From Takashimella koratensis (lineage: Eukaryota > Basidiomycota > Tremellomycetes > Trichosporonales > Tetragoniomycetaceae): 64,000 bases of DNA. The translations under genes were made by a program, and so were the position numbers. Each line of letters starts with the position of its first letter. Within the stretch, counting starts at the first letter, position 1. Below the pieces are notes generated by a model that did not search any database, had not been told where the DNA came from, and worked only from the letters and a program-made list of their open reading frames with translations. Of this stretch, positions 4,714-64,000 are shown in pieces. The stretch is taken from the NCBI GenBank assembly GCA_003116875.1, contig BCKT01000009.1, positions 806,001-870,000 of the forward strand, read 5' to 3'.

Positions 4714-4744
4714 GTTCTCGGTAGTCGAATCGAATTTTCCATAG

Positions 4745-34308: not shown

Positions 34309-37300
34309 TCAGCCAATCAATCTCGTCTCAAGAGCCGCCAACTCATCTTGCAACGCAAACATTGCCTTCTCTGTTGCTTCAATCCTCCCTTGCAAAACTT
34401 CCGACTGATGTGGCAAGGTCTTGACCAATTTCTCCCACCTATCCAATTTTCCCAACTTCTCTTCCAATTCCCTTTTGATCGAATTCATCCTTTGCGCGGT
34501 CGTCGTTGTGATATATGTTGTATTCATTGAGAATGGAGAAATGTGTTGAGAGTAGTCGTTGGCTGTCGATGTGCTGGTGGACGGAGCATCGAAAGAGTCG
34601 TTCCGAATAGGCGTCGAGGACAAGGGAGAGTGAGAGCGACCCGTTAAAGCAATCGGATCGAGAGACGCGGGACGATTCGTATCAGGCTTCTCGTCCTTGT
34701 CTTCGTCTTCTAAATTGTCTCCGCCCTCGCTGGATGCCGAGTCCCATTCAGTCACAGGCGTAGGATCCCTCAACTTTCGGCTGTCGAAACGCGAGAAGGT
34801 AGGTGCTGGGAAATCTACCGTAGGCTCCGGTTGAACTGTTGGCGACTTGGTCTTCGTCGATTGGCGACGAGCTGGTGACTCGGGCAACAGCTGAGGCAAC
34901 GATTTAGACGACGGTTCAGGTGACGGTCTCGACGACGGCTTGAGCGAAGGTTTCGTCGATGGTCCGGGTGAGACTCTTGCGAGTTTTCGAGGACGGCGTG
35001 GCTTTCGCTTCGGCGGCTTCACCGGCTCTGGCTCTCGTTCGGGCTCTGTCTGTGGTTCTGGCTGCGGCTCCGGTTCGAGCTCCTCATCAGACAACACGAG
35101 CTTCTGCACACGACGCCGTTTTCTCTTCCTCACCTTTCCCTCCTCCTCCTCTTCCTCCTCCGAGTCCACCTGCTCATCCCTTTCGGGTTCTCTCTCTGTC
35201 TCCACGAGCGGCTTCGCAATCGGTTCCAGCGCCCAACCTTTCCGCGGATAGAAGTAGAGTAGCATCGACTGACTGTTCCAAGACGGACGCAAGCTGAGGT
35301 TGAGTTTGTCTTCCCACTTTGCTGTCTCTCTTTCGATAAACGCCTTGCAAGCCTTTTTGGCCATTCGTTGTTCATTCGTATAAAGATGCTTGTAAGCCGA
35401 CGGGATGCGGACGCTTGCAGCGTACTGGGGAGCACCACGGGGACGGCCTCGCTTCTTGCTCTGCTGGGCCGGGACGTGGGAGGCGATTGGGACGGTGGAG
35501 GCGGTAGACGTGGAGGCGAGTGAGAGGGAATTGGCCATGGCGGAAGTCGTCGTCGGCGAAGGGGTGAGCTGAGTCAACGTGCTGGAGGAGTGAGCCGAAT
35601 TTGACGTTTTCCGCGCTCGTCTTGCTGGCCTGATCTCTCGTAAAGGACGTTCATCGTCGACAGTTGATGTTCCCCTGATGTCGTCCCCTGCACCACCGGC
35701 TGATAACTCCGTCTTCTCTTCGTCGTCTCTCTCCCCCACCACCCCGGACCCAGCCGTTGCTCGTTTCCCTCCTCTCTCTTCATAAAGACTGTCAAAGTCG
35801 CTGCCTCTCTCATCCTCCTCCTCAACTTCATCCTCGTCCCCCTCATCCTCATACTCGTCCTCATCATAGTCCGAATCGTCTTCGTTTTCCGATGGGGACG
35901 GTGACCGAGGAACAGTCACCGGTTTTGCCATCGACCTCGTTCGAGGGCGGTGCATGGTGAATCTCTCATCCTCGTCTTCGTGCTCACTCCAATCCTCCAG
36001 CCCTGCAACACCCGAGTCATCCGCTTCGGCGGCTATCGTTGTAAAAGTGTTGTCTGGACGAGCCGTATCTGCTTCCTTTTTCGTGTCCTCCTCGGCAGGG
36101 GTCGTGTCGATCCCATCACCCTTGCGAGTCGCGCTTGTGTAATCGTCTGCAGGGGTTATAGGGATCGCGCACTCCTGGGGCGCTGAGTCTGCGTCGTCGT
36201 CCGGCATATCGATCAGAGTGTTCGCCGGGTTCTCGATAGGGTCGTCTTTACGAGTAGCATCTTGTTCTTGGTCTGCTTCTGGGTTGCCCTCACCCTCTGT
36301 CCCGTTGTCGAACCAATTACCCAACCCGTCCCCCAACTCATCCTCCAACCCATCCTTCGACTCGTCCTCAATTTCATCCCGCATATCATCCTCCACTACA
36401 TCCTCCATCACGTCTTTCACCTCATCTTCTACCCCATCCTGCACTCCATTCTCCACTCCATTCTCCTCCAAGCCCCCAGCCTCAACATGCACAGACATGG
36501 TTGAATCAAGCACTTCGAACTCGCTGGTCTCGCCAACCTTCTCCTTGCTCTGCTGCTTCCGTTCGTGATCTCCATTGTCCTCACACTCCCCCTCGGCGAC
36601 GTGTTCGATCTCCACATCTGCAGATGTGACCGGATCGGGGACATCGACGTCCATGGCATCGCTGGCCTGGTGATCTCGCGAATCGACTTCTTGGGGTCCT
36701 GGATCGCTCGCCCCTTTGCCCCAAGTCACGTCATCCGTCTCGATCTCGATCTCCATGGCGGAAACCGCCTTCGGCCCAATCGGTGTAGGACTGACGGCGG
36801 CAGGCTTTGCCGGGGCAGGTTTTACAGAGATAGATTGAATCCCGCCAAGATAAGTTTGTACGGGCTTGATCGAGACGCGCTCGAGCGGTATCGGGTCGAC
36901 CGGAGCCGGCCTGTCAATGGTTGGCTGGACGCGGAGAGACTCGACGGAGAGAGGCTCAAATGGGGACGATTCAACGGGGAGAGGCTCAACTGCAACACCC
37001 TCGATTGGGACAGCCTCATCGATTTCCATGGTTGCCCCGTCTTCGTCGCTCCCCGCTTCCAACTCCCCGGATCTGACCTCAATGTCCACCTCCATCGTGG
37101 TGTCGACCGGGTCCACCTCGCTCGTCGCAACGTCTGCAGAGACCATTTGCTCGGTCGTCTCCATGCTGGCCTTGCCGTCGTCTTTCTGTGGCTGTGATAC
37201 GTCCTCGTTGGCGGCTTCTTTGTCGACACCATCCTCCTGCCCATTGGGTCGTGTGTTGACCCGTCTCTCGACACCGTGCGGTTCGTACGAATACTCATCC

Positions 37301-40249
37301 TCGAAAACGGGCTGGGGAATGAAAACATCCTCCTCCATATCGACTGGCCCATTGATAGTGTCTTCCTCGTCATCGTGGTGCGCAATGACGACATCCGCCC
37401 GGACACTGGAAGGACCATTGATCTGATCCTCCTCGTCTCCATGGTCCAAGGATCTCGGTTGTTGAGTGGAAAGGGTCGAAGGGCGGGCGAAAGGCGGCGG
37501 CACGACGTTCAAAGCTGGCTTTTGCACAGACTGAGACGGCTTCGGTAGCGGTTTGGCAGTGGTTTGGGCTGGCCGGGTACCAGTCTTGGCGTTTCCCGCT
37601 TTATCCAATTTGGCAGCAGATGCCCTCTTTGCCATAGCGACACCAATCTCCTCGATGCGGGGTTGTGATTTAGAAGGAGCTTTGACCGTGCTCCCTGAAC
37701 CGGGAGTCGAAGTCGGCTTGTTTGACGTAGTGGTCGCTGCCGCATCTGAGGGTGATGCTCCTTCCGAGGCTGAGGTAGCTGTCGCCTGGGAAGCAGGTTT
37801 CGGAGTAGCCGATCTGGTTTTGCTCGGACTTCGCTTGGATAATAAAGCAACCATTGGCGAGGTCTTAGGCTTTGAGACAGGTTTTGGGGGTGGTGGCGCC
37901 TCTCGCCAGTGTAAAATGATACCTCGATCGTCCCATATCAGTTTATGCACAAGCTTCCCCACAACTGCACTCCTCTCCCTCGTCTGTTGATCGTATGCCT
38001 TCCGAGCCTCCTGCTGTCTCTCCGGGTCCCAACAATCGGCCGGGATCATCTCTTTTCTACACTCATTGTCAGCAGAGTGCAAATGAAGCTGTGAGTACAA
38101 ACTAGTCCGAGCTTAGGCTTACTTTATCCTCCTGACGTAGACACTTGAGAGCGAAGTGGTTGTTGATGCCGTCTGTGATGGTTTTACCGGTGTAGTTGAG
38201 GCTGCCGTTGTCGCGGGAGTCGAAGACGTGGCGGCAGAAGAAGTTACGTCACCGTCTGGTTGAGTGGAAACAATCGCCGCAAGAGGCGAGGTAGACGAGG
38301 GCTTCTTGGTAGGTTGCTTCGCAGAGCTTTTTCCTGTGGTCGAAGGTGTACGAGACGCCGACGCCGAGGAAGGGACCACCGGCGTTGTTTGGACGGAGGC
38401 AGTTTCAGATGAAGAGTCGATAGTCGGAATCTCCTTGCGCTTTGGCACCAGTCTCTCTTGTGTAGGCGGCAACGGCGTCGAGGTCTGCTGGTTGGGATCC
38501 ACAGATTCTGCTCGAGACGAATTGCCGCCACCGCCATCTGAGGGTTAGTTCGAGACCATGTAAAAGGGGGATTTGTGTGATGAGAAGATGTGAGTGGTTC
38601 GAGAAGCAGAGGGACAGAGGAGTGGGTTGGAGGAAGACAGTGCAGAGAATCTCAACTTACCTCGGCTGCGTGCTGTTTCGACCGGTGGAGCCGGGGCGTT
38701 GGTTCCTGCTGCCTTGTTCACACCACCAGCTACGTCCCCCGTTCCATCGCTTGATCTCGGTATCACGGTCTGGGACGGACCCTTTGCCGTTGTCCCTGAC
38801 GGTCGACTTGGAGGTCCAGATTCCTTGCTTGCCTGGTGCGATGCCTCCGAATCCTTCCCCACGTTCACCACTGGTGGCGTAATGAACGTTAGATCCTTAG
38901 GCGGAGGCGGGATCTGGACTGTGGGGGTATTGAGCAGTTGGACGGTCGAGGAGTCATTACGAGGTAACGAGGGACGAATACGTGGGTCGGCAGTTGAGAC
39001 CTGCCGACCAGGCTTGGAGCATGGGTCCATGACCTTCGGAGTAGATGTCATTGAATCCTTTGCCTTCATCGAATCTTCCGCCGCCACGGTCCAACCAGAC
39101 GCCGTGCCGGGGCTGGACTGTCTCACAAGATTCATGTCATCAACGTTGACAGAGTTGTTGGCTCGTGCGTCCTGCTCCATGCGGTACGAGACGATCTCCA
39201 TCGCCCTTCCAGCCACTAAATGGCGACGGGAGTCCGACTTAGTCATAGTCGGAGGTGTAGGCAGAGGCGGGGGTTTGATTGGAGCGGAAAGGGAAGCGCT
39301 GACGGGGGTAGGAGGGGGTGATGATGGACGCGGTCGAACCCGGGGCACGTAGGCTGGTATCGCAGGTCGAGCTGATACCTTTGCAGCTGCGGATGGCTTG
39401 GGGGCTGGAGTAGCTGCGGTTTCTGGACGTTGATGAGAATCGAGTTGAGGGCTAAAAACGATGGTTTGGATATGTAAGCATTTGAGAAGACAATAATAGG
39501 ATTAAGGCTCACCCGGGTTTGAACTGGTATTCGCGGTAGACTGGCCGCTCGTTCGCACTCATCGCGGTCGCCGGCAAGAGGAGCGCCGAAGGGGAGCGCT
39601 CTGCGGGTCTTACGACAGGAACGGACGTGGGCCCCGTAGGTGTGGACTCCAAAGGAGGAGATATCACAAGCGTGAAAGGCTGTGAAAATGGTGCTTCAGC
39701 GTGCTGGGTTGTTGGGACGCCGGAAGTCGTTATTGGTGGTCGAGAAGCGAGGGTGAATCCGGGATGCGGTATGAAAGCGAGAGGCTCGATAGATGATGGC
39801 CGTCCCAGGAACGAAGCCGGCTGGATTGGAGCCAGTTCAAACGGCGGGAGACGCATGTTAGGAAGTGATGCGGTGGGAAGAGGTGTAGGTGTTGGACGGA
39901 TGGAATTTGTCGCCGCTTGGACGTTCTTAATGTTCTCGACGGTTTTGATGGAAGGCTGGCTACCATCTTCGCTCTTCTTCCGCTTCGTAATGGGCGTGCT
40001 TTGGATAATCTGAGATCGATTGGCTCGCTTAAGCTCTCGATCAACGGCGTCATGGGCTGCGGCTCCTACTGAAGAACTGAGGGGGTAAGCGGTTAATGGG
40101 GGAGGACGATCAGAGGATGAGCTGCCGGACTGGGAGTCGGTTGAGGGAGAGAGCGACCTGGTGGTAGGACGGGCGACGGACGGCGCTGCGGGTAGATGAG
40201 TGGTACATAGAGGTAGCGGATCGTCGGCTGGGGGTGTGAGCATGGGCAT
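34309..40249 (-). CDS. Array-2 gene A: giant member of the CW/IPxHL/coiled-coil family (1896 aa)
   Basis: Four exons: 40249-39513, 39451-38661, 38537-38123 and 38056-34309; the frame closes exactly at 1896 codons. The N-terminal 650 residues are Ser/Pro/Thr-rich and contain KPGRQVSTADPRIR. A phase-2 intron, flanked by VYVRRIK and KKEMIPADCW, precedes the first conserved module (37890-38056: ADCWDPERQ...LIWDDRGIILHW). A disordered acidic linker of over 800 residues follows, with several MDVD-like motifs. The second module (35215-35405) runs from IPSAYKHLYTNEQRM to LLYFYPRKG. A basic KKRKRRR-type stretch follows, and the C-terminus is the family coiled coil ('LDRWEKLVKTLPHQ' to the stop). This is two to three times the size of its neighbours, the growth being in disordered parts. 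Function unknown; nuclear location is inferred from basic clusters. Confidence 0.7.
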
Positions 40250-40797
40250 GGTGGTGGAGTGAGGAGATGGACAAAGAGGGTGAAGGAAGGTTGAAGATCA
40301 GCAGACGGGGTCTGAAATGTTGAACTTGGATTGATTGTTTCTTTTCTCCCATCACCAGCCTTTCATTTCTCACAGACCCATCACTGCCCACCCCCCCTTC
40401 GGCCTTCCCAGCGCCAGGTTGCTCAGACCTCGTCGTCGATCTAGCAGTTAATGCGCAGCAACGTGCGTAACTCCACAGGTTCCCAAGCCTAGAACAGAGG
40501 GCTCGGACCGCCTCTTTCTTTTTTTTTCGTCCAAGTGGACCGGGACGCGGTGCCTGGTCGCTCGCTGAGTTGCTTGCTTCACGTTTCAAAAAACGCCACC
40601 ATACCGCTGTGGCTCTATTGTTTCGCGGGCACCAGAGAAAAAAGGACTTGTGCAGCAACAAGTTACCCCAGATTGGGAGTTTGCCGCTTCGAATCTGGCT
40701 CTCTCTAATTACCAATCTCGTAGAGACTGAATGCTTATGGTATCTTACAAGGCAGTGCTACAACAATCCACAAGCTGTGTTACGTAAGATCAATATA
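40250..40797. other. Spacer between array-2 genes A and B
   Basis: Promoter of gene A and 3' region of gene B. It includes a poly-T run at about 40515-40528. No gene supported. Confidence 0.4.
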
Positions 40798-43027
40798 TCA
40801 TGAAGCAGTCATAGCCCTCTCCAACTCCTCGCGCAACTGGAATACCGCCTTTTTCGTCTGCTCAATCGTATCCGTCAAGAACTGCTGCTGCCTCGGCAGA
40901 GCCTTGGCCATCTTCTCCCACTTTGCGAGCTCCTCGACCTTTGCGTCGAGGCGAGCGACGATGCTCTCGACGTCCTGACCGCTGCTGGGGCCTACCTGAT
41001 CAGGGGCGGTAGCTGACGAGGTAAGGGTGTTGATTACGGGCAGAGCAGGGAATTGGTCGAAAGGCGAGGCGATTTGTGCTGTGGAGAGGAGTGGGGTAAC
41101 TGGTGTGAATGTCTTCGAGGTCGACGCTCGGGCGGATCGGGTCGACGGAGTGGGCCGTGACGGCGGGGTAATGAATGGTACGAGACTGCGTCGTTTGCCT
41201 GAGGATGGAGGCGAAGGGGTAGGGGAAGGGGATGAGATGATGTCACCTCCTCCAGACTCGGGAGTAGGCGGGTAGGTAGTCGACGACGATGGCATAGGTT
41301 GAGTCGGCGTAGATGTTGTATTCAGTGACACTTGGCGCATAATCGTGACCGCCTCATCCGCTGCTCGTGAAAGATTGGCGTGAGCCATTTTATGCAGGTA
41401 GATCCACGGATTCCGCCCTCCCCATCGCGGATATAAGGCCTCGCGGATGACTCGCTGCGCATGCTGGGTTGCCATCTTGACAAACGACTTGCACTCGTCG
41501 TCAAGTCGTTCCTTTTCGCGAGGCCGAGTGGAAAGGATGCGGAGTAAGTGGTCCGGAATCTTCACTCGGGCGACTTGTTTCCAACTGTCTGCGAAGGTTT
41601 ACAGTAAACGTTGTGGAGATCATCTTTGGTACTGAAGCTGGTCGACGATACGTGTGGTTTGGTCCGCGAGTTGTTCCTAGTGGTCGCGCGATCTGTTCGC
41701 TGATGGCATCGATACTCGTTGAATTCCGATTTTGCATAGATGTGGATGTATGACTTCTTGTGAACACCGTTATACGTGAGTGCGACCCCCAGTCGACTTT
41801 CGGCTTCCTCGATAACGGCTTTGGCGAACCGTTCGAAAGTAGCTGTGTTGCCTCCGGCTTGAGATTGAAGACCTTTCGGAATCGACACTCGTGCCACCCA
41901 TGCGATGTGTTGACCAGCCGCCTTCGTGAATCCGGCAGGACGGTACTCGATTTCGACATCAGCTATTGGAAATTCGGACGGCTGGGACGGAGATTCGGTC
42001 TGACTTGACGCCAAGCTAGCACCGGGCGCAGTTCGGACGCGATTGAAAAAGCCTTGCAAGCTGAGCCGAGGGAGCGAGGACGAAGTGGAGGCGGTATTGT
42101 TGTCACTGCCGTCGGCATGTCCAAGAGAGGTATCGGTAGGCGTTGTAGTGGGACGATATCCCACCTCGCTGCTTAGAGCAGCGAAGAGACCCCTGGTCGT
42201 CTGTGAATTGTCCATCACAGCGGCATCCGTTCGAACAGAAGCATCCGCTGGTGCAGCCAAAGGCGCTGACAAGGTCAACCGCTCAACGGGTCGGACATCC
42301 ACGCCGAGACCATCCTCTTTCCAATGTAGCCTAAGGGCCTCGAGGTTTCGCTTCGCGAGAGACGTATTGAGCTGGACATCGTACTTCATGCGCGCCAAGC
42401 CAACACCAGGCCCCGTCTCGTAGCAGAGAGCAGGGAGCAAGCTCTTTCTGTGATAGGGGTCAGCTACCGCCATTACCACAACGTTTACATCACAACGAAG
42501 CAAGGTGTAACCTACTTGATCCACATGACTCTGAACCCTCCTGACATATCAGGAGTAGCGCTCGAGATAGGCGAGACCATTGACCGTGCACTCGAAAGTC
42601 CCACTCCCGCCTCGAGACTCGCGATATCGGGCTTGATGTCCTGCTCTTCCTCATCGCCTGTCCCCAGCTCACTAAGCTCATCAGCCTCGCCCGTGCGCCC
42701 ATCCATCGGATCGTCCTCGCTTTCCGAATCCACCGAGAGCGTACGATTGATATCAGGCAGGGAGACATCGATCACTGAGGCACTAGGTTGACTCGACGTC
42801 CGGACACCGGTGATCAGAGCGTCGGTCGGAGCCGGCTCGCTGAACATCTCGACGATCTCCTGGCTCGAGTGAGACGCGGCATCGCTTAAGTCTCGAAGAT
42901 CTATGACGTCGGCGGCATCCAGCGCGACGTCAACGTCGACGTCCATAGCGAAGGGTGCGCAGCGGGGGAAGAGGGTCGGGATGGCTGGGAGGTGAGAGAG
43001 TGCAACATTGAGAGTTCGGGTTTTCAT
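40798..43027 (-). CDS. Array-2 gene B with two second-type modules (about 676 aa)
   Basis: Exon 1 43027-42516 is acidic (MDVDVDVALDAADVIDL, SESEDDPMDG) and ends FRVMWIK at a phase-2 intron. Exon 2 begins at 42447 with KKSLLPALCYETG and the first module, LRLHWKEDGLGVDVRP. A second-type module (about 41710-41890) reads VSIPKGLQSQ...AESRLGVALTY...YIHIYAKS. A further intron follows, and exon 3 (41584-40798 in the model I prefer) carries another second-type module, VKIPDHLLRILSTR to NPWIYLHKM, and the coiled coil AKWEKMAKALPRQQ. The last intron was set at 41585-41715 by phase; a 44-nt alternative ending at the neighbouring CAG also keeps the frame. It is the only member seen with a doubled module. 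Start could be the internal ATG at MDVDVDV. Confidence 0.6.
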
Positions 43028-43440: not shown

Positions 43441-46105
43441 CTACAGATGGGAAATGGACGACATCTCATCGTGTAAGTCAAACATCTCATCTCGTAGCCG
43501 CCTCACCCTCTGGTCCAAGGCCTCTTTCATCTCTGGGAGATCGGCGCTCATGGCTTCCCACTTCTGCGACTCGGCAAATTTGGCGTTGATCTTTCGTTTG
43601 ATCTCGTCCAATGAGCGAGTCGACGCCGACGCCTCGGACTGTGACGTGTCGGTGGCAAGAGGCTTGGGCTGGTTCGTTGACGGCCCTGGATGGGATTCTT
43701 GATCGTTCTCCGGGACGTCGGTGACATCTAGCTCAGTCGGAGGCGCTGCGGTGACTTCGTTCGATCCCGTGGTCGCGTCATCTCCCTCTGCAACTCTCTG
43801 ATATAGCAACCGTCTCTGATTCTTGCGGGGATACATATACAACCAGGACATGCTCCACGTGTGCGATACCGCAATCCCTTTCTCCTTCTCCGTTTTCATG
43901 ATACAGTCCGCAACAAACCGTTCGACCTCCTCGTTACCGTCGCGAAGCGCTTTGGTTGTCAAATGCAACAAGTGAGCAGGAACTTCGTGTCTGTCAGCCC
44001 ATAGGCCCGGCGCTTTTCGACGTCGTCTGATCTTTTTGGCATCGAGGACCTTCTTCTTTTCGCGTTTCGTTTCCTCCTCTCGCTTGGGTATCTGAGCGGG
44101 TGATGTTGCGGACTTGGAGGAATTTTTAGTCGAGACTTTGTTAGCACGGGAAGATCGAGACGAAGAAGCCGTCGGTCTTGCTGTGCCCGCTCCGCCGGCG
44201 CTATGACCCCCGCCCTCGTCATCGTATTCCTCGTCCACGTCCATTGCCTCTTCGTCCGAGGAGGGACCGGATTCCGAGTCTTCGATTCCCGGATCGTGCG
44301 TGGGGTCCAGTTCGCGTGCGTCCAACGTCGCATGAGAATTACCTTCTGGAACGGCACTAGCCTGACGGTCTTCCGGCTCCAATTTCGGGACCACCGTCTC
44401 ACTGGTGCTCTTCCTCATCGACAGCCGCTCCCTCGAGGTCGAGCAGCTGCTCGCGTTGGGATCAATAGACGATTTCTTGGTGGAACCGCTAGTCGTTGCT
44501 GTTCGTTGGGCGATAACTCGTTCGGGAGATGGAGTGTCCGGAGTTGTCCCAGGATGATTGTGGAACGTAGCACGCGAGACCGGCATCTTCTTTGCACTCT
44601 TCTCAGTTGAGGGAGGACGAGAGTCCCGAGTAGGAGGTGGTGAAGATTTGACCGTGGGCTTGAATGTTGGAGACGGAGCGATACGAGTGTTAAGAGTTGG
44701 AGATCTGGAAGGAGGAACTGGTTTGAACTGCCCAGGGACCGATTTCGAACCTGTTGAGGTCTTACTCGAAGTCGTCTGCTCCCCGTTGGCGGTCTCCGTC
44801 GACTGTGACGCTAGGGCAGAACGGTCGAGAGATCGATAGTTGACACCCAGCCCGTCCTCTTTCCAAATAAACCGCCGAGCTTTGAGCCCCCTCCCTTTCA
44901 GTTCTTCCATAAGGAGTCGTTCCTCGCTTGTCTGCGCCTTGAGCATGTGCCGCATGTTCGATGACCAGCATGCAGGGGGTAAATCGCTTTTCCTGAATGA
45001 AAAGGATGATGATCAGCTTTGACGTATTGACATCAGGTGTATAGAAGCTGGGACAGGGGTCGACTCACTTGATCCGTAAGACAAGATACTCTTCCTCCGC
45101 ACCGGTCTGGGGTCGCTGCTGCGCCGCTGTTGAAGCAGCAGTACGAGCGATGTCTGGCTTGACATCGACGCTATCATCTTCATTCAGAACGCCGCGCGTG
45201 CTTTGGCCTGCCTGAGGGCCCATACCGGTAATTGATGTCTGCGTACTGCTTGACAAACGCCCAGTTGTCAGTGGCGTGGTTGAGAATTGCCGAACGCGCG
45301 GGTCTGCACTGGATACGTGTCTCCCGGGCTTGGTACGAGGGTCGATTGTCCCTTGAGCCGCGGCTTCGGTATACGGCCCTCGCGTGTCCATCTGTGTGCT
45401 TCTCGCCCTGGGTCCTAGTATGTCCGACATTTTGGACGGAGACGAAGAAAAAGTCGGACTCCTCTCAGTTCGAATGCTTGTCTCGTTCCCGTCTGACGGC
45501 GGTACTTCACGTACCAACGGTGTCGTCTTCCATCGAGACTCTCCCAGCGGCCGAGACTGTCGGTTGTCCCCTCGATCATCACGCCGATTGTCCGAGACGC
45601 TTGTTGAGGACCCAGGTGCTTTGTCGAACTCAGGTCGATAACTGTTCCTCACTGCTGCGTATCCACGGGGGACTTGGATCATTGTCGACGGCGACGGGCT
45701 CCTCGCACCTAGACCGCCGCCACGGTGACCTGAAATATGTTCAGGAGGGGGTAAAGGAAATTGGTCGGGCAATGGCGAGTATCTTCTCCCCGCGGAGAGA
45801 GGCGATTGGTGAGAACGGTAGTCTGGGGATCGTGATCGTCGGCGGGGAAGATCAACTAGTCTCGGCGACGACTGACCGCAAGGTCGTGTTGGCGATCTGT
45901 TCTCGTTGTCTCTCATGGGCCGGTGGTACTTTCTCGTCGGGCTGACAGACCGCTGTAGCTCGCGACGCTGCTCACAAATCGTCGGCGCTGGGCCTCGGTG
46001 AGTTGACTTGGACTCGGAAGCGGTTCCTACATCCCGCCGGGGGCGAACAGGAGAGTCGCCATCGGCACCGCCCCCATCGGCACCGCCCCTTCGGGTGTCC
46101 ATCAT
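43441..46105 (-). CDS. Array-2 gene C (862 aa)
   Basis: Two exons, 46105-45069 and 44992-43441, closing at 862 codons. Exon 1 encodes an Arg/Ser-rich N-terminus (PRRRSRSPDYRSHQSP and similar) with KPGRHVSSADPRVR near its end, closing with EEYLVLRIK at the phase-2 intron. Exon 2 starts KKSDLPPACWSSN and carries the first module (ARRFIWKEDGLGVNYRS), a long linker with AMDVDEEYDDEGG, a KKTRKEK-like basic stretch, the second module (EIPAHLLHLTTKALRDGNEE to WLYMYPRKN) and the coiled coil (SQKWEAMSADLPEMKEAL) ending near FDLHDEM. This is one of the cleanest reference copies. No enzyme motif is seen. The Arg/Ser repeats suggest a nuclear protein that could associate with RNA or splicing factors. Confidence 0.72.
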
Positions 46106-46605
46106 GTCGGCCAGACGGATGGTGTTGAACTCGTCGACGAGGGCTCAGTGGAGAGGTGCAATGTGTTCAACGGCGCAGTGTCGAGGTCTAGTATATCGAT
46201 GGTAGTGAAACACGAGCATCGATGAGAAGGGCGAAGATGGCAGATCAAAGATCGAGTCCCCCCAGGAAAGAGCAGGAGGGGGATGGGTGCAGAGCACGAC
46301 TACGCAACCCTCGCAACGCCGTTTCCTCTGACCTGCTTCCCGCCGCTCCACGCGTAATCTAGTGATGGCAAATTTTCTAGCTCGTTGGTTCAACAACTCC
46401 GTCTCCAGGCTAGGACTCTGTTGATGATCACTGCGCACAGCTCGTCCGCCTCAGCCCCTGTGGCTTGGTTCCTGTAGAGCAGGTTTGAAACGAGCAAAGT
46501 GTCTTATTATTCGACAATCTCCTTGTGGCTAGGACGCGACGTGCTTCACGCTCGTACACTACAATGAGCGTGGTGGGCATGGTGTATGATGTGCATTCGA
46601 CTCTA
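46106..46605. other. Spacer between array-2 genes C and D
   Basis: About 500 bases; promoter of C and 3' region of D. No gene supported. Confidence 0.4.
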
Positions 46606-52700: not shown

Positions 52701-52793
52701 ACAGCTGTCCCTGCCATCCCATTTGTCCCTTCCATCCCATCTTTCCCTTCCATCCCATCTGTCCATATCTCTGCCCCTGTCTATGTTCCACAT
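49725..52793 (-). CDS. Array-2 gene E, with a one-base frame break at a homopolymer (about 987 aa)
   Basis: Exon 1 52793-51772 (first in-frame ATG, MWNIDRGRD) is Arg/Ser/Asp-rich, contains RWDGR repeats and KMGRNVSSNDPRIK, and ends SSYWIR at the phase-2 intron. Exon 2 from 51716 begins RSEVSTDFWSEQP with the first module (MTFTWKHDGINVNFRP), an acidic linker, and the second module (EIPHHLGLLRTISQRANHQE to WLYMYPRKN). Continuing to the C-terminal coil needs a 49-nt intron at 50062-50110 and one base fewer in the run of nine identical bases at 49950-49958. With those, the chain includes GEMDIDNSASVSVDH and the coil IEDKLRELKELQD to IFDLHAEV. A sequencing error or a real frameshift are both possible. 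The true start could also be in an upstream exon, since ATG-led coding-like sequence exists up to about 53160. Confidence 0.58.
52713..52764 (-). repeat. 18-base tandem repeat coding for (R/K)WDGR units
   Basis: About three copies of an 18-base unit, read on the minus strand as RWDGRE, RWDGRD and KWDGRD, within the disordered N-terminus of gene E. Confidence 0.75.
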
Positions 52794-53669
52794 GTGTTTG
52801 TCACTGTCGTTTCGCTGGGAACGAGATTGGTCGCGAAGAGGGGAAGGGGAGAGATCCACTGGGTCTGGACGGTAATGTCGATCTCTACCTTGTGGATGGT
52901 CTCGAGGGGAGGACGATTTGAGCTGCACCGCGTACTCTCGCGCTCATTATCTTGTCGACCGGGAGGAAAGGAGGTATTGTTACCGGTTGCACTGCCTCTT
53001 GGACCCATCCTTTGGAGCCGGTCACGAGCAAGGTCGGGCGGAGTTACGACTACCGATTGCGAGGGCGATAATATGGGCGCAGGATTGGGTGGTGATGATG
53101 GTGGAAGTAGGTGGAATCTGTCGAGAAGGGAAACGCTAGGGGAGATCGGCGGGGTGGTCATTGCTGAACAAGGATTCAGATCGGCGAGGCAAGGATGATG
53201 GTGGAAGAAGAGGTTACTCATAACCCTACCCCTCGAGTGCCAGTTGTTATAGAAGCTTAGACCAAACCAAACCATGGACGGACAAGGTCAGCGGGCAACT
53301 GAGCGGCCTTGCTACTGGTCACCGTCGGTCACCCCTCTGCTCCATCTAGGAACAGTAGCTAATGATGGCCCACCAACCTCCACCTTCAAGCCTTATCGCT
53401 CAGACCTGAAGAAAGGTCACCTTTCCTCGTACCATCACTTTCTCCTCCGGCCCGACAACATCGCGCCACAACGTCGCACGTGCCTCTGTGCAACAAAAGA
53501 GTCACCTGTCGCACTTCAAGGATGAAACCATGTGCGCTCGGATTTTCTTTCCCTGTCCACGTTCTTATTGTTCCGAAGCATGTAATTTCCCTTTGGGGGT
53601 ATGTCATATATCGAGTCAACTTAAGCCGGCCAGATGTACGTACTCGCCGCGCTTCTCCGCCTCATCATC
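52794..53669. other. Spacer or possible extra 5' exon of gene E
   Basis: On the minus strand, an ATG at about 53160 opens a coding-like frame (MTTPPISPSVSLLDRFHLL...) to about 52920, in a different frame from exon 1 of gene E. A GTACGC donor lies near its end, but I could not fix an acceptor. It may be the true first exon of gene E. The rest is intergenic. Confidence 0.3.
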
Positions 53670-56072
53670 TTATCGTCTCGCCTCTGCCAGTTCTTTGTGC
53701 AACTCAAAGACCTCCTCTTTTGTCCTCTCGATCAAGCTGGTGATATACGACTTTCGATCCGCGAGCTGCTCGTCGTTGCTAATCTCCTCCCACTTCTTCA
53801 AATCGTCGATTTTCGCCGTCAATTGCTTCAAGAGGCTTCCCACGTTCGGAGTGTGGGCGGCGGGGGTTACAGAGATGGACGACGCTTGGCTGGTTTGGGC
53901 AGAAGGGTGGGCTGCGGGCTGATCAATCGCCCCTGGGGATCGGATGTCGGCCTGATTGCGGGATGAAGACGAAGCTGATAGACGACTGTTCTCTTGGCGA
54001 GAAATAGACGAGGTCGGCGCCGTCGATCGAAATGATTTGTGCATATCCTTTTGAGTATACTTCTCTCGGTCTCGAGGCCAGGAGGAATGTACCACCGACC
54101 CCGTGGAGGGAAGGGGTGAGAGCTGTTGTTTTTCGTTCGTCTCATGTCTCGTCATCGTCACTGTATCGGCCGTCTCGGCCACCGAATTTCCACTCTGTTC
54201 TATCTTGCGATACAGGTACACCCATTTGCGGCTCCACGAGTCGATGATTTCAACATTCTGCTCACGTTCCGTCTGCTCGATACACTTCTTGATGAACTTG
54301 ACGCATTCGGAGTTGGCGAGGCGCTGCTTTTTTGTTACCAGCGTGATGAACTCCTCTGGAATTGTGAATCGGGCGAGGTAACACCCGGTCCTGGCGTGAC
54401 GCTTTGGACGCATGGTCGAGGTCTCCTTTTCGCCGTTTGAGTCATAAGAGGAAGGGACAGCGAAAGGGGCCGGGCGTTTCGGTTGGTTTCGTAACTGTTC
54501 CTTGTCGAGTCGTTTTTGGACATTCGGAGGTGGGTTTCGAGAAGATACCGTTGTCGGATCCACACGTGGACCGGAGAGGATCTCGATGTCGTCGTCGTCG
54601 TCTGACGTCTCGTCAAGCGACGAGATACTGCTGGTGTCTATTGAGGCATGATCCTGGTTCATGGGCATCACGGGGTGGTCGACGATACTGGGTTGGTGGT
54701 CGGTGGGAGAGACCGTACGGTGGCGGTCAACTGCGTCCTGGGCCGCTGAGCTATGCGACTTCGGCGGCTCACTGGACTTTTCCGCCGAGGCTGCTGCATC
54801 GACTGAGAGTATCGAGCTGTCTTGTGCAGCGCTTCCCCCAGACTCTGTCGTGTGCCCTTGAGTACTGCTTCGGGCTTGACGTTTCTCCCCTGACGGCCAT
54901 CGCGGGCGTGGTCGGAAGTTGGCGATTGACGATTCGACGACGGCGGTGGGATAATGCCGGATCGCGAATTCTTGGAGACGGGAAGGTGGATTCGTTGTAG
55001 CCAGCGATGTCGACGTGGCCGATGATGGTGCTTCAGGTGCGGTTTTGCGACGCTCATGGCCAAAGGCAAGACCATGTTCCTGCCATTGAAATTTGATGAC
55101 TTGTCGATTGAGCCGAAGGCAATCTCGTCGAATATCTTCCTCGTGAAATGACCTTGCCCGCGCTACTCGTTCTGGTTCAGATGACCAGCAGTCTGATCTG
55201 AGTTTGGTTCTTCTGTCGACTGTTAGATTATTACCCTACCACGTTGTTCGATCCAGAATCCTAGCACTTGTGAGATCACTCACCGTATCCATTGGAACTC
55301 CAGGGGAGGGGCAGGAGCCGAGTGTACCGCGTTTTCGCGGGACACATTGGGCTTGGAAGGGAGGTCTGTAAGGTCCCCATCGTACTCTAGCTCGTCTTCC
55401 TCAATGCCTATGACAGCATCAAGTGGTGTGTCAGCCAGGTGACATCAAATGAAGCAGCCGTGAGCGTGACATAGTTGACTCACGACTCGATTCACCGACA
55501 GGAGGAAGCAACTCTCTGTTCGTGTCACTTTGCTCCGTATGCCATCGAGGTCTCTTCTCGGGAGGCTCGGGGTGGTACGTAACTGACTCCCGGCCCCAAG
55601 ATGCGCGACGATCCCTCTCTACGCTGTCTTGAGTGCGGTCTTGGGTTTTGGACTTTTGCGCAGCGGCCATCTGCCAGGCGATCAACTTTGACGAAGGCTC
55701 CCTGTCCTTCCTGTCTTCAGATCGTCCATGTTCAGCGTTGGACAGGCGATCCGAGTACCTTGCCATGTCATGTAACGGCTGGCTAGGTGTATACGAGCGA
55801 AACCGATCTCGGCAGAACCGACTTCTCTGATCTTGCGAAGATGAAGACGAGCGGTAGGTATCATTGTGCGGAGGTGGGGAAAGAGGGAGAGAGGGGAATG
55901 AGCGAGCTGGGTTCAGATCGAGGGGCCCGTGGTCGTCACGGAGAGAACAGGGGGAGGTCGGAGGAGGTCGGGAGCCCCATCCTTGTCGGTCGCTGGAACG
56001 ATCCGACGTTGGAAAGACTGTTTTCTCTACTCGTCCCACAGGACCATCACCACGACAGTTGCGGCTCTCCAT
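53670..56072 (-). CDS. Array-2 gene F (751 aa)
   Basis: Three exons: 56072-55484, 55407-55284 and 55212-53670, closing at 751 codons. Exon 1 (MESRNCRGDGPVGR...) is Arg/Ser/Pro-rich. Exon 2 is a short acidic exon (IEEDELEYDGDLTDLP) ending PLEFQWIR at the phase-2 intron. Exon 3 starts RTKLRSDCWSSEPERVARAR with the first module (IKFQWQEHGLAFGHE), then a Ser-rich linker with a DDDDIEIL stretch. The second module is divergent (TIPEEFITLVTKKQR to KWVYLYRKI), and the coiled coil (LKKWEEISNDEQLADR) ends VFELHKELAEARR. The three-exon layout with an acidic middle exon is shared with G, H and I, which therefore form a right-hand subgroup of the array. Confidence 0.72.
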
Positions 56073-56429
56073 CCTCTTCCGGGTCGATCCTCGAGTTGAG
56101 GGGAAGTTTCAACTTGGTGTCAATGGTGCAGTAATGCAATACACGTCGGTCATTCGTTGATAATCTCAGCGAGCGGAGTTTCGGATGCCCAGATCCCTTT
56201 CATCACTGTGGCCGTCCTTTGGACAGGGAGCACATGCCTCGAGGTCGCTCACGCACGCGCATCATACTGTGGCGATCGCCTGGGATCAAGTCAGAGGACT
56301 AGTCGAGCTGAAACGCAAGAGATCTCCGAGAGACGAGATGACAACGTATTCGCCACTTTGGTCATGAGTCTGAGCTCTGCGTGTACCATGGACCCATGCA
56401 TACAATCTGCCAATTCCCGACCCTTGCCA

Positions 56430-57578
56430 CTTCGAACGTTCCGCCAACTGCCTATTGAGCTCAAAGATCTCTCCCTTTGTTCTCTCGTGGAGAGATTGTG
56501 GTGATGTGAAGGCCGAGAGTGGCGCTGAGTGGTCTCATTGCTTGAGCTGTTCAGAGGCCGATGCTCGAAGGCAAGACCGTCTGGAGTCCAAAAGAATTCA
56601 GTGATCTCCCGTCCGAGGCTGAAGTGTCTCTGCCGGATGAAATCTTCGTGAAATCGGCGCGATTTTGCCGCCTTCTCAGGATCCATCGACCAACAGTCGG
56701 GCTTCAGCCGTCGACTGCTCTTCCTAACACCCGTCAGTCGGCCACCGATCAGATTTGTTGAAAGTTCCACCGGCAGGTAAGGGTCTGCTTTGTCACTCTA
56801 TGCTATTATGACCATAAGCTTCTTGGTCTCTGGTTGACGCTGGCGCCAGCGGAGTTTCTTCTGACGTTTCACCAAGTTGTTTACCTTGGTGATCAGGTTG
56901 ATGCGGTGACTGTCGTCGTCAAGTTCGTCTACTTCGCCGGCTGTATTGGCGACTACGCCCAGGAGAATGAGTGAGCCAGGAGCACATACCATGCGGCTTT
57001 TCATGACTCACCACTCGATCCCTTGTGCGTCCCGTCACCCGTACAATCTGCGCTCCGCCCTAGGCTCGTTTGACGCGTTCGCCAACGAGGGGTTGTACTA
57101 TCAGCCAGCCAACCCGTCCCTGCCGTATGATATCTTTTCCCGTCACGAGCAATACCTCTTGATGGGAGAGAAGTGGCGTACGAGGGGGCGCGGGCCTTTT
57201 CGCTGCTGCGAGTCTCAGACTCAGGTCGACGCGTGTCGTTGGTCGAAGACTGGGACTGTTTGCAGACGCCTTTCGGGGGTATGATCGACCGAGACTGGAT
57301 TGCCGGAGACGTCGGGCGATCACCTGATGCGGGGGGGACCTCTCGTCCGAGGTCATCGTCAGACCTATGGTGTCTGCTTGGGGGAGATAAAGGGGGAGAT
57401 GGCAATCTAAGAATGGGGTAAGGATCGGTCGAATCACGACGCAAACGATGAGTGCGTGGAGACGTCGGGTCAGGACGAGACTCCCAGTCCTGGCGAGCGT
57501 TGGGACGATTGGATCGAAACTTTAGGGTGTCTTAGAGCGGTCAAATAGCTCTTTTCCACGGTAGCTGCGGCTCTCCAT
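56430..57578 (-). pseudogene. Array-2 copy G, decayed duplicate of F
   Basis: The minus strand from 57578 begins MESRSYRGKELFDRSKTP and then stops; gene F begins MESRNCRGDGPVGR. In another frame the sequence continues DWESRPDPTSPRT (F: GWGSRPPPTSP) and LPSPPLSPPSRHH (F: LPLSPPPHND). A middle acidic piece (GEVDELDDDSHRI) parallels F's exon 2. Next comes a first module (LKPDCWSMDPEKAAKSRRFHE, FFWTPDGLAFEHR), which is joined after only a few residues to a remnant of the coiled-coil end (ERTKGEIFELNRQLAE) in a different frame. The whole linker and second module are missing. Nonsense, frameshift and a large internal deletion make this a clear pseudogene. Confidence 0.8.
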
Positions 57579-57930
57579 GCTACCTTACGCGTCGACGATG
57601 GGATCGATACTAAGACAAATGGTAATGGGATGGGTCGATGATCAAGCTTAAAGCCCAACTGTTGGCGGAGTTTCGAGTACACAGGCCCATTTTATTATTG
57701 CGGCCTTCCTTTGACCAGGGCGTGCTTGACTACGGTCGCGAGCCGGCTCGATCGTGGACACTGTAAGACATGCAACAGATTGCTTTAACAAGGATATCAA
57801 GGTCGTTGAGCGTAAAGGCTTGGATTGGGCCACCAAGTCTACGAGGCTTCGACGAATTTGCATGTGTCTGTCTGTCCAATACTACGAACTAGCGATACAC
57901 AAATGGATCTCATACGCAATGGGAGCTCGT
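57579..57930. other. Spacer between array-2 copies G and H
   Basis: About 350 bases; no gene supported. Confidence 0.4.
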
Positions 57931-60423
57931 TCACACTACCTGGCTCAATCTCTCATGCAGCTCGAAGATTTCAGCTTTAGTCTTCTCAATGTGTTGTCGG
58001 ATCAATGAAGCTTGTTCAGGGATGCCAACCTCCATGGATTCCCATTGCTTCAAGTCCTCGAATTTCCCGTTGACTTGCTTTCGAAGTTTGTCCGCCGTCC
58101 GTGACTTGTCCTTGTTTGCTGGATACGAGAGCTCGAGGGACGAGAGGAATTTGTCGGATTTGTGAGGTGTGCTTGCCAGCCCACCCGAAGACCAGCGCGG
58201 TCCCCACGTCGGCGTCGGTAGAAGAAACTCGTCGTCCAAATGATCCGGTGAAGCCGACGTCGAGTCTTGTGAGAGTGCTGGTACCGTTGTTTGGCTTGAG
58301 TCGATGTCAGAGTCGACAAGGGGATGCATGTAAAGCCAGTCTCCTGCCCATGACGCGTAGACGCTGATTTCGAGTCGAGCCTCGGTCTCGTCGATCGACG
58401 CCTCGAGGAAAGTTTGGAATTCCGGGTGGTTATCGCGAAAATCGGTAGGTACATTTTTCAGGTAGTCGGGAAGTTGGTAACGCGCAAGGTAGCTGTTGGT
58501 GTTGGAAGTGTGCCTCGGTGGGTTCGAAGTAATGTCGGTCGTTTTGAAAGTTGGGTCGTGGTGGTTGGTCTCGCTAAAGCCCCGGGTCGGGATGTTTTTG
58601 CCGGGGGAGAAACCCGTCTCTTTATCGATTGAATGGGCGATATCGTCGGCGGAATGAATGCTACCGGTCAGCGAGTTTGAGCCAGCAGTCAACGTAGTCG
58701 TGGCGTCGTCACCCATCCAATCTTCGGCATACATCCGCCCCTTCCTGGGCTGACGGTGATTGGTATGATTTCCATCAGAGACACGGCAGTCGTGAAAGGC
58801 AGAGGCGGAAAGTGTTGAAGAGGCAAGATTGTCGACGGGAGAGACAAGAGGAATGGCGCACATGTGTCCCGCAGCCGAAAGAGGGATAACTGGCGAATGA
58901 TCGTCAACATACTCCCCCTGAACCAAGTCCTCCAGAACTGATGCATCGTATTCGAACTGGTCCAACATAGGTGTAGGGCCTTCACTCCATCCGCTCGTTC
59001 CGTAAGACGCTGACCGGGCAGTGGCGCTACTGGCTGGGACCCCTCGATCGCGATCAGCTGGAGTATGCCAATTGGGTCGGTGATCACCCGTTCCGAACTT
59101 GGTGGCGTTTGTGTCCCTCTGCTTATCAGACCACGACTCAAAAGACCGAGGCGGACTTTCGGGATCCGGTTTCTTCTCGCCTTCAATATACAGCCGATAG
59201 TAGATCAGAAGCCCTTTATTCCGTTCCCAATGAAGATGTATGACTCTGCGACCAAGTCGAGCATAGTATTCAACAGTCTTCTCCTCGTGGTACATCCGCG
59301 CAGGCAGGGCTTTATCTGGATCCGAGGACCAGCAGTCGCGCTTGAGCTTGATAGCTCTGGTGACAACAACAATTACAATCATTGGATTACTTCTACTAGT
59401 TGGAGCTATGGCAAAATCAGCTCAATTAGGACTACACACATGGCTACCTGATGCTTCTTTGAACATGTAGTATGGGTGCATTGGAATTTTGTCTGAGTTT
59501 GAGTCTAATCCTAATGGGTTACCACTTCCGTGTGTGTGTAGTGTCATTAAGTGCATAATTGCTAATGCAGATAGTAGGAATGGAAGTAAGTAGTGTAGTG
59601 AGAAGAATCGGCGATTCGATCAGCACGGTCCTCATGCGTGCATGCCAGATGCCAGGGAGAACTCACTTGAGCCGACTAGTCTCGATCTTGAACGGTGCAT
59701 CAGCGGGCCCAAAAAGCTCACGCAAATACCCCTCACCGCCGTCGGTATGGATGTCGTAGCCAGCTCCGTCCGGTGGAGTATCTGGATCTAAGGTTAACAA
59801 CCCTGGAATCTACTATGCGAGGCTGATCGCCAGAGTTGACAGCCCAACTCACAGAATGGACCGACATCAGAAAGTCTAGACAAGAGTAAACGCCCCTCTG
59901 TCAGGTCGCGGTCGATGGTGTTGCTAAGAGGTTCATCCTCTGGGTGGAGGAACCATCCGACCCCTGCTCCTTGTGAAGCATTGCAAGCAGGCGCCTGCAG
60001 TTTGTACGTTCGGGGCGGGTTCCTCGACTGGTGCGCAGTTGATGGCGGAGGTGAATTGCGGGTGTTATAGATTGGAGCAGATGGACGCCTATCGTATCGG
60101 TCACCATTACGAGACTGCCTATCTTCTTGGTGTTCATATCGGGAGCGGTAAGAGGCAGCAGGTGGGAGAGAGTACTGTCTCGACCTTGGATAGTCGTAGC
60201 GGGAAGGTTGGTAGTCACGAGGAGGTTGGTCACGCAGAGTTGGAAGATGAGGAGAGGGCGACCTGTAACGAGCTCGAGGGTGGTACGCGTCGTCGTCGTA
60301 TGAATGGTATCGCGGATAAGGACGCGGGGAGCGGGATCGAGGATGGGAGCCCCGGTGATCCCAATCGTCGAGGCGGTTTCGCTGCCTGCCTCTCGCCGGC
60401 TCTGGATACCAGTGGCGATCCAT
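57931..60423 (-). CDS. Array-2 gene H, intron carries a mitochondrial insertion (705 aa)
   Basis: Three exons: 60423-59853, 59787-59667 and 59356-57931, closing at 705 codons from the ATG of [16 protein letters not shown]; an upstream in-frame ATG at 60546 would add 41 residues. Exon 1 is an Arg/Ser/Tyr-rich RS-like tail ([13 protein letters not shown] and similar). Exon 2 is short ([14 protein letters not shown]) and ends IETSRLK at the phase-2 intron. Exon 3 begins with [13 protein letters not shown] and a divergent first module ([15 protein letters not shown]), a polar linker, the second module ([14 protein letters not shown] to WLYMHPLVD) and the coiled coil ([14 protein letters not shown]) ending IFELHERL. 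The intron between exons 2 and 3 is 310 bases, far longer than its 55-76 base counterparts, because of the mitochondrial fragment annotated separately. Confidence 0.7.
59362..59607. other. Nuclear mitochondrial DNA insertion (NUMT): nad5 + cob fragments
   Basis: Plus strand 59362-59454 reads [19 protein letters not shown] followed by [10 protein letters not shown], a diagnostic stretch of NADH dehydrogenase subunit 5. Directly abutting, minus strand 59607-59455 reads [19 protein letters not shown], then [14 protein letters not shown] and [10 protein letters not shown], a diagnostic stretch of cytochrome b. Both fragments are uninterrupted and A/T-rich, unlike the flanks. They come from two mitochondrial genes in opposite orientation, joined end to end. 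They lie wholly inside an intron of gene H; removing them leaves about 64 bases, a normal intron size. This fits capture of mitochondrial DNA during double-strand break repair. Confidence 0.92.
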
Positions 60424-60763
60424 GCTTTGAGTAAGCAGGTGAGGTGGGAAAGAAGAAAAGTCGATGGAGAAGAGAAAAGTGGGATCAAAGTAGACGCGCT
60501 GCGGAGTTTCGCGTGCGGATGGGAGGGGGTCCTTTGAGCCATCCATGTGGCCCTCGACCCATCATTTCTGTATCCTTGCGCCCATCAATAGGGAGGTCGA
60601 AAGGGATTGCGGGGGTCAGACGAGTGCGTAGATACAATCACTGTGCGCAGACCGAGTAGCCCGGTGCCACCTAATCTCTCCCGTGGAACTCTTTCTGACT
60701 GAACTGATCATGTCTCCATTATTTTCTCACATGAACGTTGTATGGACCAAGCCATGCGATACT
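60424..60763. other. Spacer between array-2 genes H and I
   Basis: Promoter of H and 3' region of I. An extra N-terminal extension of H up to 60546 is possible. No other gene supported. Confidence 0.4.
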
Positions 60764-63030
60764 TTACCCACTCTGAGTCTCTGCCAACTTCTCCTGCAGC
60801 TCAAACATCTCCCTCTTCGCTCTCTCTACCCGATCTTCGATGTATCGCCTTCTATCCCGTTCGAGCGCCGAGTTGTCCCTGACCCTTTCCCAGTTTTCCA
60901 ATTCCTCCACCGCCAAGTTGAACCGTTTGCCCAGCTCCGCCGTATCGTAGACCGTGGTGGTGCTTTCTCGCGTCCGCCCTGCTATTGCCGCGCTTGATGT
61001 CACCGAGGACGTGGCTGATGACGCGCTGGTGATTGTCTCGCTCAGTCGCTTGGAACCTCCAACGACAAGGTCCGGGCCGTTGGTCAAGCTACTGGGCTGT
61101 TTGGCGGGTTATTGAGTTGACTCTGATTGCGATGCTGTACCTTTTGACTTGCGCTTCTTTCGAATCGATAGGAGAGGAGAACAGCTTTGAGACCGGCGAG
61201 TACGGGTTGACGTCGATCTGGGGCCCAAAACACCAGAAGAAGATCGATTCTCTAGACCTGTCTGGAGGGCGATCTGAGAGTTGTCATATCATGCTCACCC
61301 GCGTCGCTGCTAGAAGCCGGTGGACTAACGGGAGCCTCGACGGACACGGTGCTTCGCCACGCCTGGTACTTTCTTGGATAGAAGTACAGGAAGCGTGCGC
61401 TCCATTTATGATAAAGAGCCATGTTGGTCTTCGACTCGTATTCTTTGATTGCTGAGTTGATGAACTCGTCGCATTCGCGGTTGCCGGATCTCTGTTCCGC
61501 CTTGGCGAATCTTCTCAGGTGCTTGGGGATAGATTTCTTGTCGACATGTCGTGGTCGTTTGGCAGGTGGCCTCCCGTTGCCTCTGAACTGAGGAGTTTTG
61601 GGTGAAACCTGCTTGGGGGAGGATAACTCTGGTGACGAGTCGTCGAAGAGAGAAGGCGGCAAGATGTCTGGGATCGAGCGGCGAGCAGGTAGTTCCTGCT
61701 CCAGTCGTCTTTGGACACGCTTGGGGGGATGCACCGAGAAGATCCCTGCATAGTCGGAAACCGAGTCCTCGCTACTTGATTGCTGTTCAGAATCTTCGCA
61801 AAGGTTGACCACGTCCGTGTCGGAGCTTTTCTTACCGTTCGAGTCGTCGTACGTTTCGTTGGCTTCGTAATCGGAGTCGATTGACGCCCTGACTTGGGGA
61901 ACAGACAAACGTGCTTGGCGGTCATCGGCAGCATTCGGTGCGGAGAGGGTGCCGGGAATAAAGTCTAAGATGCGGACGCCTTCTTGACCTTTTTCGGCGG
62001 CTGACTTGGCTTGCTCGGAGGTGGGAAGTTCATTTGAGTTCCGGAGAAAACCTTTGCTAGAGGGTTTGAAGTTGGCCGAGAGGGTATGTTCGGGCGACAA
62101 CGTGAGAGTGAGAAGATCTTGTGGCGCTTTGGGTTCCTTCTTTTTCGTCACGAGTTTGTGTCGTTGAAAGTCCACTCCTAGTCCCTCGGCGGCATCCCAG
62201 CGAAATCGCAGGATTGTTCTTCCAGTCCAGCTTTTTCGAACACTGTCTTCATGACGAGCACGCGCAAGCGACGCCTCTACCGGATTTGAAGACCAACAGC
62301 TTCTCTTCAGTTGCGCAAACCTTAGGGAAAAAGTTGAGCATGCGAAGGAAAGACAGCGTCACATAGCTGAGCATTGACTCACCGTATCCATTGAGCCTCA
62401 ACAGGAGCAATCTGCAGCTGTCGAGGAGGCTGTGAGGGCGCAGAATCGTTGGAGTTGATAAGTGACCTAGGTTTCTCCTCGATGAAATGACTGTCGTTAT
62501 CGAGCTCATCGACTTCAACTCATGTATAGGAAGTGGGAGGGTTCTGAGCACGAGCATAGATCACCGACAGAAGCTGAGTCTACGTACCACCCCTTGCTGT
62601 GGACATGCAACGTTGCGGAGTGGGTGAGGTAACACGCCAACCAGGTCTTCGTTCCAAACATCCCGGGGTCGATGTTTGTTTAACAGCCGTGCGATTCTCC
62701 TTGGAGGGGCGAGATTGGGGGTACGGTACGGCCTATAAGACAACTTCAGCCAGCAAGACGACTACAGAAAGCTGGGACTCTCCGGTGGTGAAAGGAGAAA
62801 ACGGTCGCTTAGTAGTGGGGTGGTGAGGAGCCTATGGCTGTAGGACTCACTTGTGAGACAGTCGAGAGGCTTTCAGGAGATGAAGGCCCTGATGGTGGCC
62901 CAGAATCCTGCGAGTGTTGTCTCGGAGATACGTAGGTTTGCTGTCGATGTGGAAGTGGAGAATGGGGAGCGCAGCCGTGAGTCACGTGAACAGTGTGCCG
63001 CTTCGTCTGTCGCAAAGTTAGCCCCTCCAT
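60764..63030 (-). CDS. Array-2 gene I (618 aa)
   Basis: Five exons: 63030-62851, 62732-62588, 62518-62383, 62320-61258 and 61096-60764; all have AG acceptors and GT donors, and the frame closes at 618 codons. The N-terminus is short and lacks strong RS repeats. The third exon is the acidic one (VEVDELDNDSHFIEE) and ends EAQWIR at the conserved phase-2 intron. The fourth begins FAQLKRSCWSSNPVEAS with the first module (LRFRWDAAEGLGVDFQR), a linker, and the second module (SIPKHLRRFAKAEQRSGN to FLYFYPRKY). A 161-base intron separates this from the coiled coil (VEELENWERVRDNSALERD) ending MFELQEKLAE. An intron before the coil is also seen in E, but not in C, D, F or H. Confidence 0.68.
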
Positions 63031-63623: not shown

Positions 63624-64000
63624 TCACTTTGATCTCGTCTCTCCCAGCTGCTTGTACAGTTCCATTACCTTTGCCTCTGTCTTCGTGATCATCTCAGCAC
63701 AGAACGAGCGATGCTCGTCGGCATGCGTCCCAAGTCCCTGCCACATCTTGAGTCGGTCGATTTCAGCATTCAAGCTATCACGGATCTTGTCAGTCGGCGT
63801 GTGAATATCCGTAGTGTCGCTGTTTACCGCCTCGGGAATAATGTTGCTCGAGCCTGATCCGGTCCCGTTGAAGGCCTCCGATTGGAAGTCAATGCCAGTA
63901 GGAGTGAAGTCAGATCTCCAATTGCCTCCCTTCCTTCGCACTTTGGGCCGCGGGGATGAACGCGTGTCATCAACGTCAACGTCGGTGGTGTTGTCGGTGT
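63624..64000 (-). CDS. Array-2 gene J, 3' end only (runs off the window)
   Basis: Open on the minus strand from the right edge to a stop at 63624-63626. It shows an acidic Asp/Val-rich stretch (TDVDVDDTRSS), a short basic stretch (RPKVRRKGG), a linker, and the family coiled coil (NAEIDRLKMWQGL, then 'AKVMELYKQLGETRSK'). Its Trp is at the position of the KWE tryptophan of the other copies. The modules upstream must lie beyond 64000, so the array continues to the right. Confidence 0.6.
   Translation of the reverse strand, partial: TDNTTDVDVDDTRSSPRPKVRRKGGNWRSDFTPTGIDFQSEAFNGTGSGSSNIIPEAVNSDTTDIHTPTDKIRDSLNAEIDRLKMWQGLGTHADEHRSFCAEMITKTEAKVMELYKQLGETRSK

Follow-up and report, generated by a model that had tools for sequence, protein, structure and literature searches.

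The minus strand of the window, by which we mean the whole stretch of 64,000 nucleotides that was analysed, is occupied from position 34309 to position 64000 by a single tandem array, which continues to about 69.7 kb in coordinates continued beyond the window. This array of co-oriented paralogues is real and has eleven members, A to K. Ten of them extend into the window and K lies outside it, so that the ten copies of the original prediction are right for the window, while the whole array comprises eleven. The array is old and has been kept at one locus, and the protein family that it encodes is apparently undescribed.

Profiles were built for three parts of the proteins: module 1 (CW..W..DGLG), module 2 (IP.HL..LYMYPRKN) and a coil. 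The members within the window, with the places of these parts and the open reading frames (ORFs) assigned to them, are as follows.

34309-40297, minus strand: member A (profiles and splice sites), last exon from 34312 to acceptor 38056; module 1 at 37897-38037, module 2 at 35233-35415, coil at 34327-34491; upstream exon ending at donor 38122, with ORFs 38548-39501 and 39512-40297 further upstream assigned by adjacency
40798-43027, minus strand: member B, upstream exon 42515-43027; module 1 (CW changed to CY) at about 42285-42440, module 2 at 41721-41891 and again at 41380-41568, coil at 40810-40974
43441-46144, minus strand: member C, upstream exon 45068-46144, module exon from 43444 to acceptor 44992 (AlphaFold2 model); module 1 at 44827-44973, module 2 at 43816-43992, coil at 43450-43614
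46606-49312, minus strand: member D, upstream exon 48299-49312; module 1 at 48070-48216, module 2 at 47137-47313, coil at 46609-46773
49746-52943, minus strand: member E, upstream exon 51771-52943; module 1 (FW replacing CW) at 51551-51697, module 2 at 50471-50650, coil at 49746-49910 (other frame)
53673-56108, minus strand: member F, N-terminal ORF 55434-56108 by adjacency, short exon ending at donor 55283; module 1 at 55047-55193, module 2 at 54195-54371, coil at 53676-53846
56294-57531, minus strand: member G, reduced, ORF 57004-57531 by adjacency, no clear matching donor; module 1 at 56552-56698, weak coil trace at 56433-56498 (E 0.0062), no module 2
57934-60561, minus strand: member H, N-terminal ORF 59797-60561 by adjacency, no clear matching donor; module 1 at 59191-59337, module 2 at 58309-58482, coil at 57934-58098
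60767-62500 (end approximate), minus strand: member I, exon ending at donor 62382; module 1 at 62158-62301, module 2 at 61363-61539, coil at 60773-60946 (separate ORF)
63627-64000, minus strand: member J, 3′ part in the window, coil at 63633-63797; beyond the window, in continued coordinates, module 2 at 64104-64280 and module 1 at 64825-64968
38968-39033 (A), 45284-45349 (C) and 51987-52052 (E), minus strand: DPR-like motif

The profiles were run over all six-frame ORFs in 104 kb, made up of the window and the 40 kb that adjoin it on the right, and found 32 places at a domain E below 0.5, namely 11 for module 1, 10 for module 2 and 11 for the coil, one of these, in G, being weak; without exception they lie at 34.3-67.8 kb on the minus strand. 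Since most of these places had served in building the profiles, the fair test is a leave-one-out search, which covered modules 1 and 2 only. All 17 held-out modules were recovered, seven of module 1 at E 5.1e-5 to 1.6e-13 and ten of module 2 at E 2.4e-5 to 2.4e-21. Places outside the profile-building set were found as well: module 1 of B (2.9e-9) and of J (1.9e-5), the coil of K (2.2e-5) and the weak trace in G.

Module 1, module 2 and coil follow one another in this order in A, C, D, E, F, H, I and J. The fixed order of parts that had been claimed is supported as a largely fixed architecture, from which B deviates with its two copies of module 2, G with module 1 and a weak coil trace only, and K, beyond the window, with module 1 and coil and no module 2. 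The coils of E and I lie in an open frame other than that of modules 1 and 2, which calls for either an additional intron or a break in the frame. The module-bearing open frames span 313-1267 codons in nine members, 266 and 328 in B, and 168 in G. To call the copies partly decayed is too strong: G alone is clearly reduced, B keeps module 1 (with CY) and carries two copies of module 2, and E and I may be either intact or broken.

Common descent of the copies is supported by a shared intron. All eleven have, in frame, an AG that would suit a phase-2 junction and, behind it, nine residues that run to the end of the CW place (CY in B, FW in E); each copy offers two to five candidate AGs, so that the AG is weak evidence by itself. 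A consensus-like phase-2 donor, chosen among two to eleven listed candidates per copy, lies 48-76 nt upstream in nine of the eleven (A, B, C, D, E, F, I, J and K), the sequences being GTGAGT five times, GTAAGT, GTAAGC, GTAGGT and GTACGT; no such donor was found among the candidates listed for G and H. The open frame before the donor ends in a short hydrophobic stretch, for example VLRI, VMWI, QWI or VLYL, and from this exon end and the donor upstream it follows that module 1 probably begins in the upstream exon. Since place, phase and exon end agree in nine diverged copies, their descent from one gene is well supported.

The modules are 17-46% identical between members, and similarity at the DNA level is nearly gone. 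Self-blastn of the array matched only the coils of C and D to each other, over 117 bp at 70%, and showed neither recent duplicates nor conversion tracts. In a tree of ten members (G dropped) only C with D is starred, and identity declines slightly as the distance between members grows (r -0.29, a value that 157 of 5000 permutations attained, G again dropped). Codon differences, totalled over all pairs, are 0.56, 0.45 and 0.66 at positions 1, 2 and 3, as compared with 0.72-0.74 for unrelated bases, and the third position differs more than the first and second in each of the ten pairs listed. Third positions, which differ most, are near saturation. These counts show that the modules are under protein-level constraint; the statement covers the modules as a whole, and linkers or single sites may nevertheless be under diversifying selection.

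Within the genome (25.1 Mb in 24 contigs), whole-genome protein searches with four queries, in which the best candidates were scored, found the family only on C9, the 1.28-Mb contig of which the window makes up positions 806001-870000 and in whose interior the array lies. Copy C gave 17 matches at E ≤ 10, 15 of them in the array and the others at E 0.022 and 0.298, and all 11 matches of copy F fell in the array. Copy K gave eight at E ≤ 1, two in the array and six elsewhere at E 0.019-0.56; none of these six lies over module 1 and three touch the coil region. Module 2 of E found nine of the ten array copies of that module and had one outside match, at E 0.95.

Searches in a set of 5.8 billion proteins gave no homologue of copy C at E ≤ 0.1 among the 7991 scored candidates sharing most words, and none of the module 1 part of K at E ≤ 1 among 30 candidates. 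As a control, a fragment of the neighbouring Bms1 found 1014 proteins, fungi included; Bms1 is far more conserved than the array family, and the control therefore shows only that the set contains fungal proteins. A tree of the Bms1 fragment with 16 proteins chosen from 120 listed groups it with Serendipita and Leucoagaricus (99/98) and so marks it as basidiomycete. In Pfam, none of ten ORF pieces (from A, C-F, H and I) reached any family cut-off, and the best matches of single modules, for which cut-offs were shown for the first member only, were E 0.0045 among ten of module 2 (3HBD, in one member) and E 0.11 among nine of module 1, taken without its first strand. A profile search of PDB sequences gave at best E 0.81 for module 2 and 0.34 for module 1, and so yielded, like Pfam, no assigned domain family. 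Accordingly, the view that the family is unnamed is upheld by Pfam, PDB sequences and, for the limited candidates scored, the protein set. A literature search, in part broad or centred on Microbotryum and judged by title and start of abstract, recognised no description of the family, which is weak evidence.

In the AlphaFold2 model of the C module exon, 114 of 517 residues have a pLDDT of at least 90, and these are located in module 1, module 2 and the coil. Module 2 alone is modelled as beta-alpha-alpha-beta-beta with a mean pLDDT of 82.7 and a pTM of 0.68, and a comparison of its model with PDB structures gave no convincing match. In the fold comparison of the 517-residue model, which holds module 1 without its first strand, the list of PDB matches was filled by the coil. 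Both modules are predicted to be of helix-plus-hairpin type, and the C-terminus is predicted to form a helical hairpin. Helical hairpins are common and do not imply oligomerisation; examples from the PDB to which the array coil comes close are those of EncB (7s5c), FemX (6snr), the Vps23 C-terminal fragment (2f6m) and the Cep57 C-terminal domain (8ibh). The idea that modules 1 and 2 are repeats of one domain found no support in the sequence: hhalign gave a probability of 0.1%, the profile alignment score was reached by 35 of 300 column shuffles, and what the two have in common is confined to the order in which helices and strands are predicted.

Hydropathy over 19 residues has a highest mean of 1.53 in 20 exon pieces, so that no membrane segment is obvious, and by this measure, with predicted starts that are approximate, the N-terminal segment is strongly hydrophobic in none of the pieces measured. 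Arginine makes up 12-14% of the N-terminal ORFs in seven of the nine members measured (C, D, E, F, G, H and K) and is not high in A (6-7%) and B (4.7%). In the 22 residues preceding module 2, raw counts of lysine plus arginine are 10 in C and D, 6 in I and J, 5 in A and F, 4 in E, 3 in B and 2 in H; C, D, I and J thus have a clear basic patch, A and F a moderate one, and E, B and H a weak one. From the low hydropathy, the arginine and the basic patches we infer that the proteins are intracellular and likely nuclear.

The arginine-rich, disordered N-terminal tails of those seven members resemble those of RS/RGG-type nuclear RNA-associated proteins. However, an RS-domain reading is unsupported except in H, the one member of the nine measured in which RS/SR pairs exceed shuffles (18 of 1000), and no RNA recognition motif or other RNA-binding domain rises above the Pfam cut-off in the ten ORF pieces. 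RG/GR pairs exceed shuffles in K (0 of 1000) and E (5 of 1000), and RD/DR pairs in F (3 of 1000). The tetrapeptide RGRP is the AT-hook core; it precedes module 2 in A only, one of nine upstream stretches, and the proteins were not taken for AT-hook proteins. The DPR-like motif listed above, DP-x-x-K-x-GR-x-VS-x-x-DPR, was found, by a model built from A, C and E, in the N-terminal part of these three members alone.

As a tentative best explanation, short of an even chance, we propose that these anciently duplicated single-locus paralogues are intracellular, probably nuclear adaptors that oligomerise via the coil. One ancestral gene of basidiomycete type would have undergone several rounds of in-place duplication in the distant past and given rise to at least eleven co-oriented paralogues. 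A full copy would be a mostly disordered protein with an N-terminal tail that is often arginine-rich; the phase-2 intron would, in most copies, interrupt module 1 behind what is likely its first strand; a long linker and module 2 would follow, with a basic, nuclear-localisation-like patch before module 2 in several copies, and the C-terminal helical hairpin may serve oligomerisation. The proteins would remain inside the cell, probably in the nucleus, the two small modules serving to bind partners that vary from one paralogue to another, and the array may thereby provide a set of related adaptors. Against this reading, K lacks module 2 and G lacks both module 2 and a full coil, B, E and H have no more than a weak basic patch, and A and B are not rich in arginine. 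A more specific version, which we think quite unlikely, is that the modules represent a new small fold that an oligomerising nuclear scaffold contains twice (in B three times), with paralogues kept for combinatorial partner choice, possibly in silencing or self/non-self control.

Tandem arrangement, low identity, variable length and the absence of any relative found beyond this genome would fit a conflict family (genome defence, or recognition of heterokaryon or killer type) whose paralogues diversify toward changing targets, and the original prediction had leaned toward such rapid change. It is unsupported by the constraint on the modules, the lack of visible recent duplicates or conversion, and the single locus, in the contig interior and adjoining housekeeping genes; Pfam, moreover, recognised no catalytic or pore-forming domain. 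We therefore regard a conflict family as unlikely. Effector genes are often found in lineage-specific tandem arrays, but the proteins considered here are long and disordered with basic patches, lack, in the pieces measured, any N-terminal segment of strong hydrophobicity, and belong to an organism with no known host, so that an array secreted or delivered to a host seems highly improbable.

Mostly non-functional copies, drifting after an ancient duplication, could explain the reduced G, the extra intron or frame break needed for the coils of E and I, and the lack of a clear donor in G and H. It is difficult to reconcile such a relic, which we hold to be very unlikely, with long module-bearing frames in nine members, position-specific constraint in widely diverged copies and splice signals kept in nine of eleven. 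A mobile-element origin is disfavoured to the point of being barely credible: one of ten copies of module 2 weakly matches the Pfam DDE transposase domain (E 0.011), which we take as chance, whereas no transposon domain rises above the Pfam cut-off, no convincing copies occur elsewhere in the genome, and self-blastn gave the one match inside the array and no repeats flanking the copies.

Whatever its function, the family adds at least one confidently predicted domain without a clear counterpart, and it is a clean case of an old tandem array retained at a single locus. If the family is nuclear and also polymorphic, it would open a test of how fungi keep diversified paralogue sets; otherwise, it is one more orphan family.

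To the left of the array, Pfam identifies NPL4 (10-11 kb) and COG5 (27 kb), and a BMS1-type gene lies at 23-25.6 kb; to its right are a DEAH-box helicase and a WD-repeat protein, recognised by eye only. Lineage-specific fungal tandem families are, as a general kind, like the array in consisting of adjacent, co-oriented, diverged paralogues without Pfam domains, and C9 carries two more of them; the array differs in its two structured modules and coil, shared intron, larger proteins and almost complete lack of DNA similarity. A small tandem orphan family of three copies, 27-41% identical, occupies 3877-6715 of the window on the plus strand, and a third, of at least six copies, lies to the right of the array at C9:898274-909860 (L040/L041), also on the plus strand. 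For each of the two, the one copy tested had no Pfam match at E ≤ 0.01, and none was found elsewhere in the genome at E ≤ 0.001.

M. lychnidis-dioicae is reported to have seven secretory lipases and four enzymes of family GH26 (PMC4469406). Genome-wide searches for PF03583, PF02156 and PF00221 (aromatic lyase) gave 0 matches each, in an exon-by-exon search that can miss genes, and this makes M. lychnidis-dioicae an unlikely source of the DNA. On the plus strand of the window, the adjoining frames 31304-32539, with no Pfam match at E ≤ 0.01, and 33064-33549 share, by eye, a common motif like IFIGTVMDHKYL / IWVGTILDRRYP. Simple-repeat coding frames (DLDLDL..., with NSNPNP... opposite) occur at 18507-19178 on the plus strand, at the end of the minus-strand frame 18775-20772.
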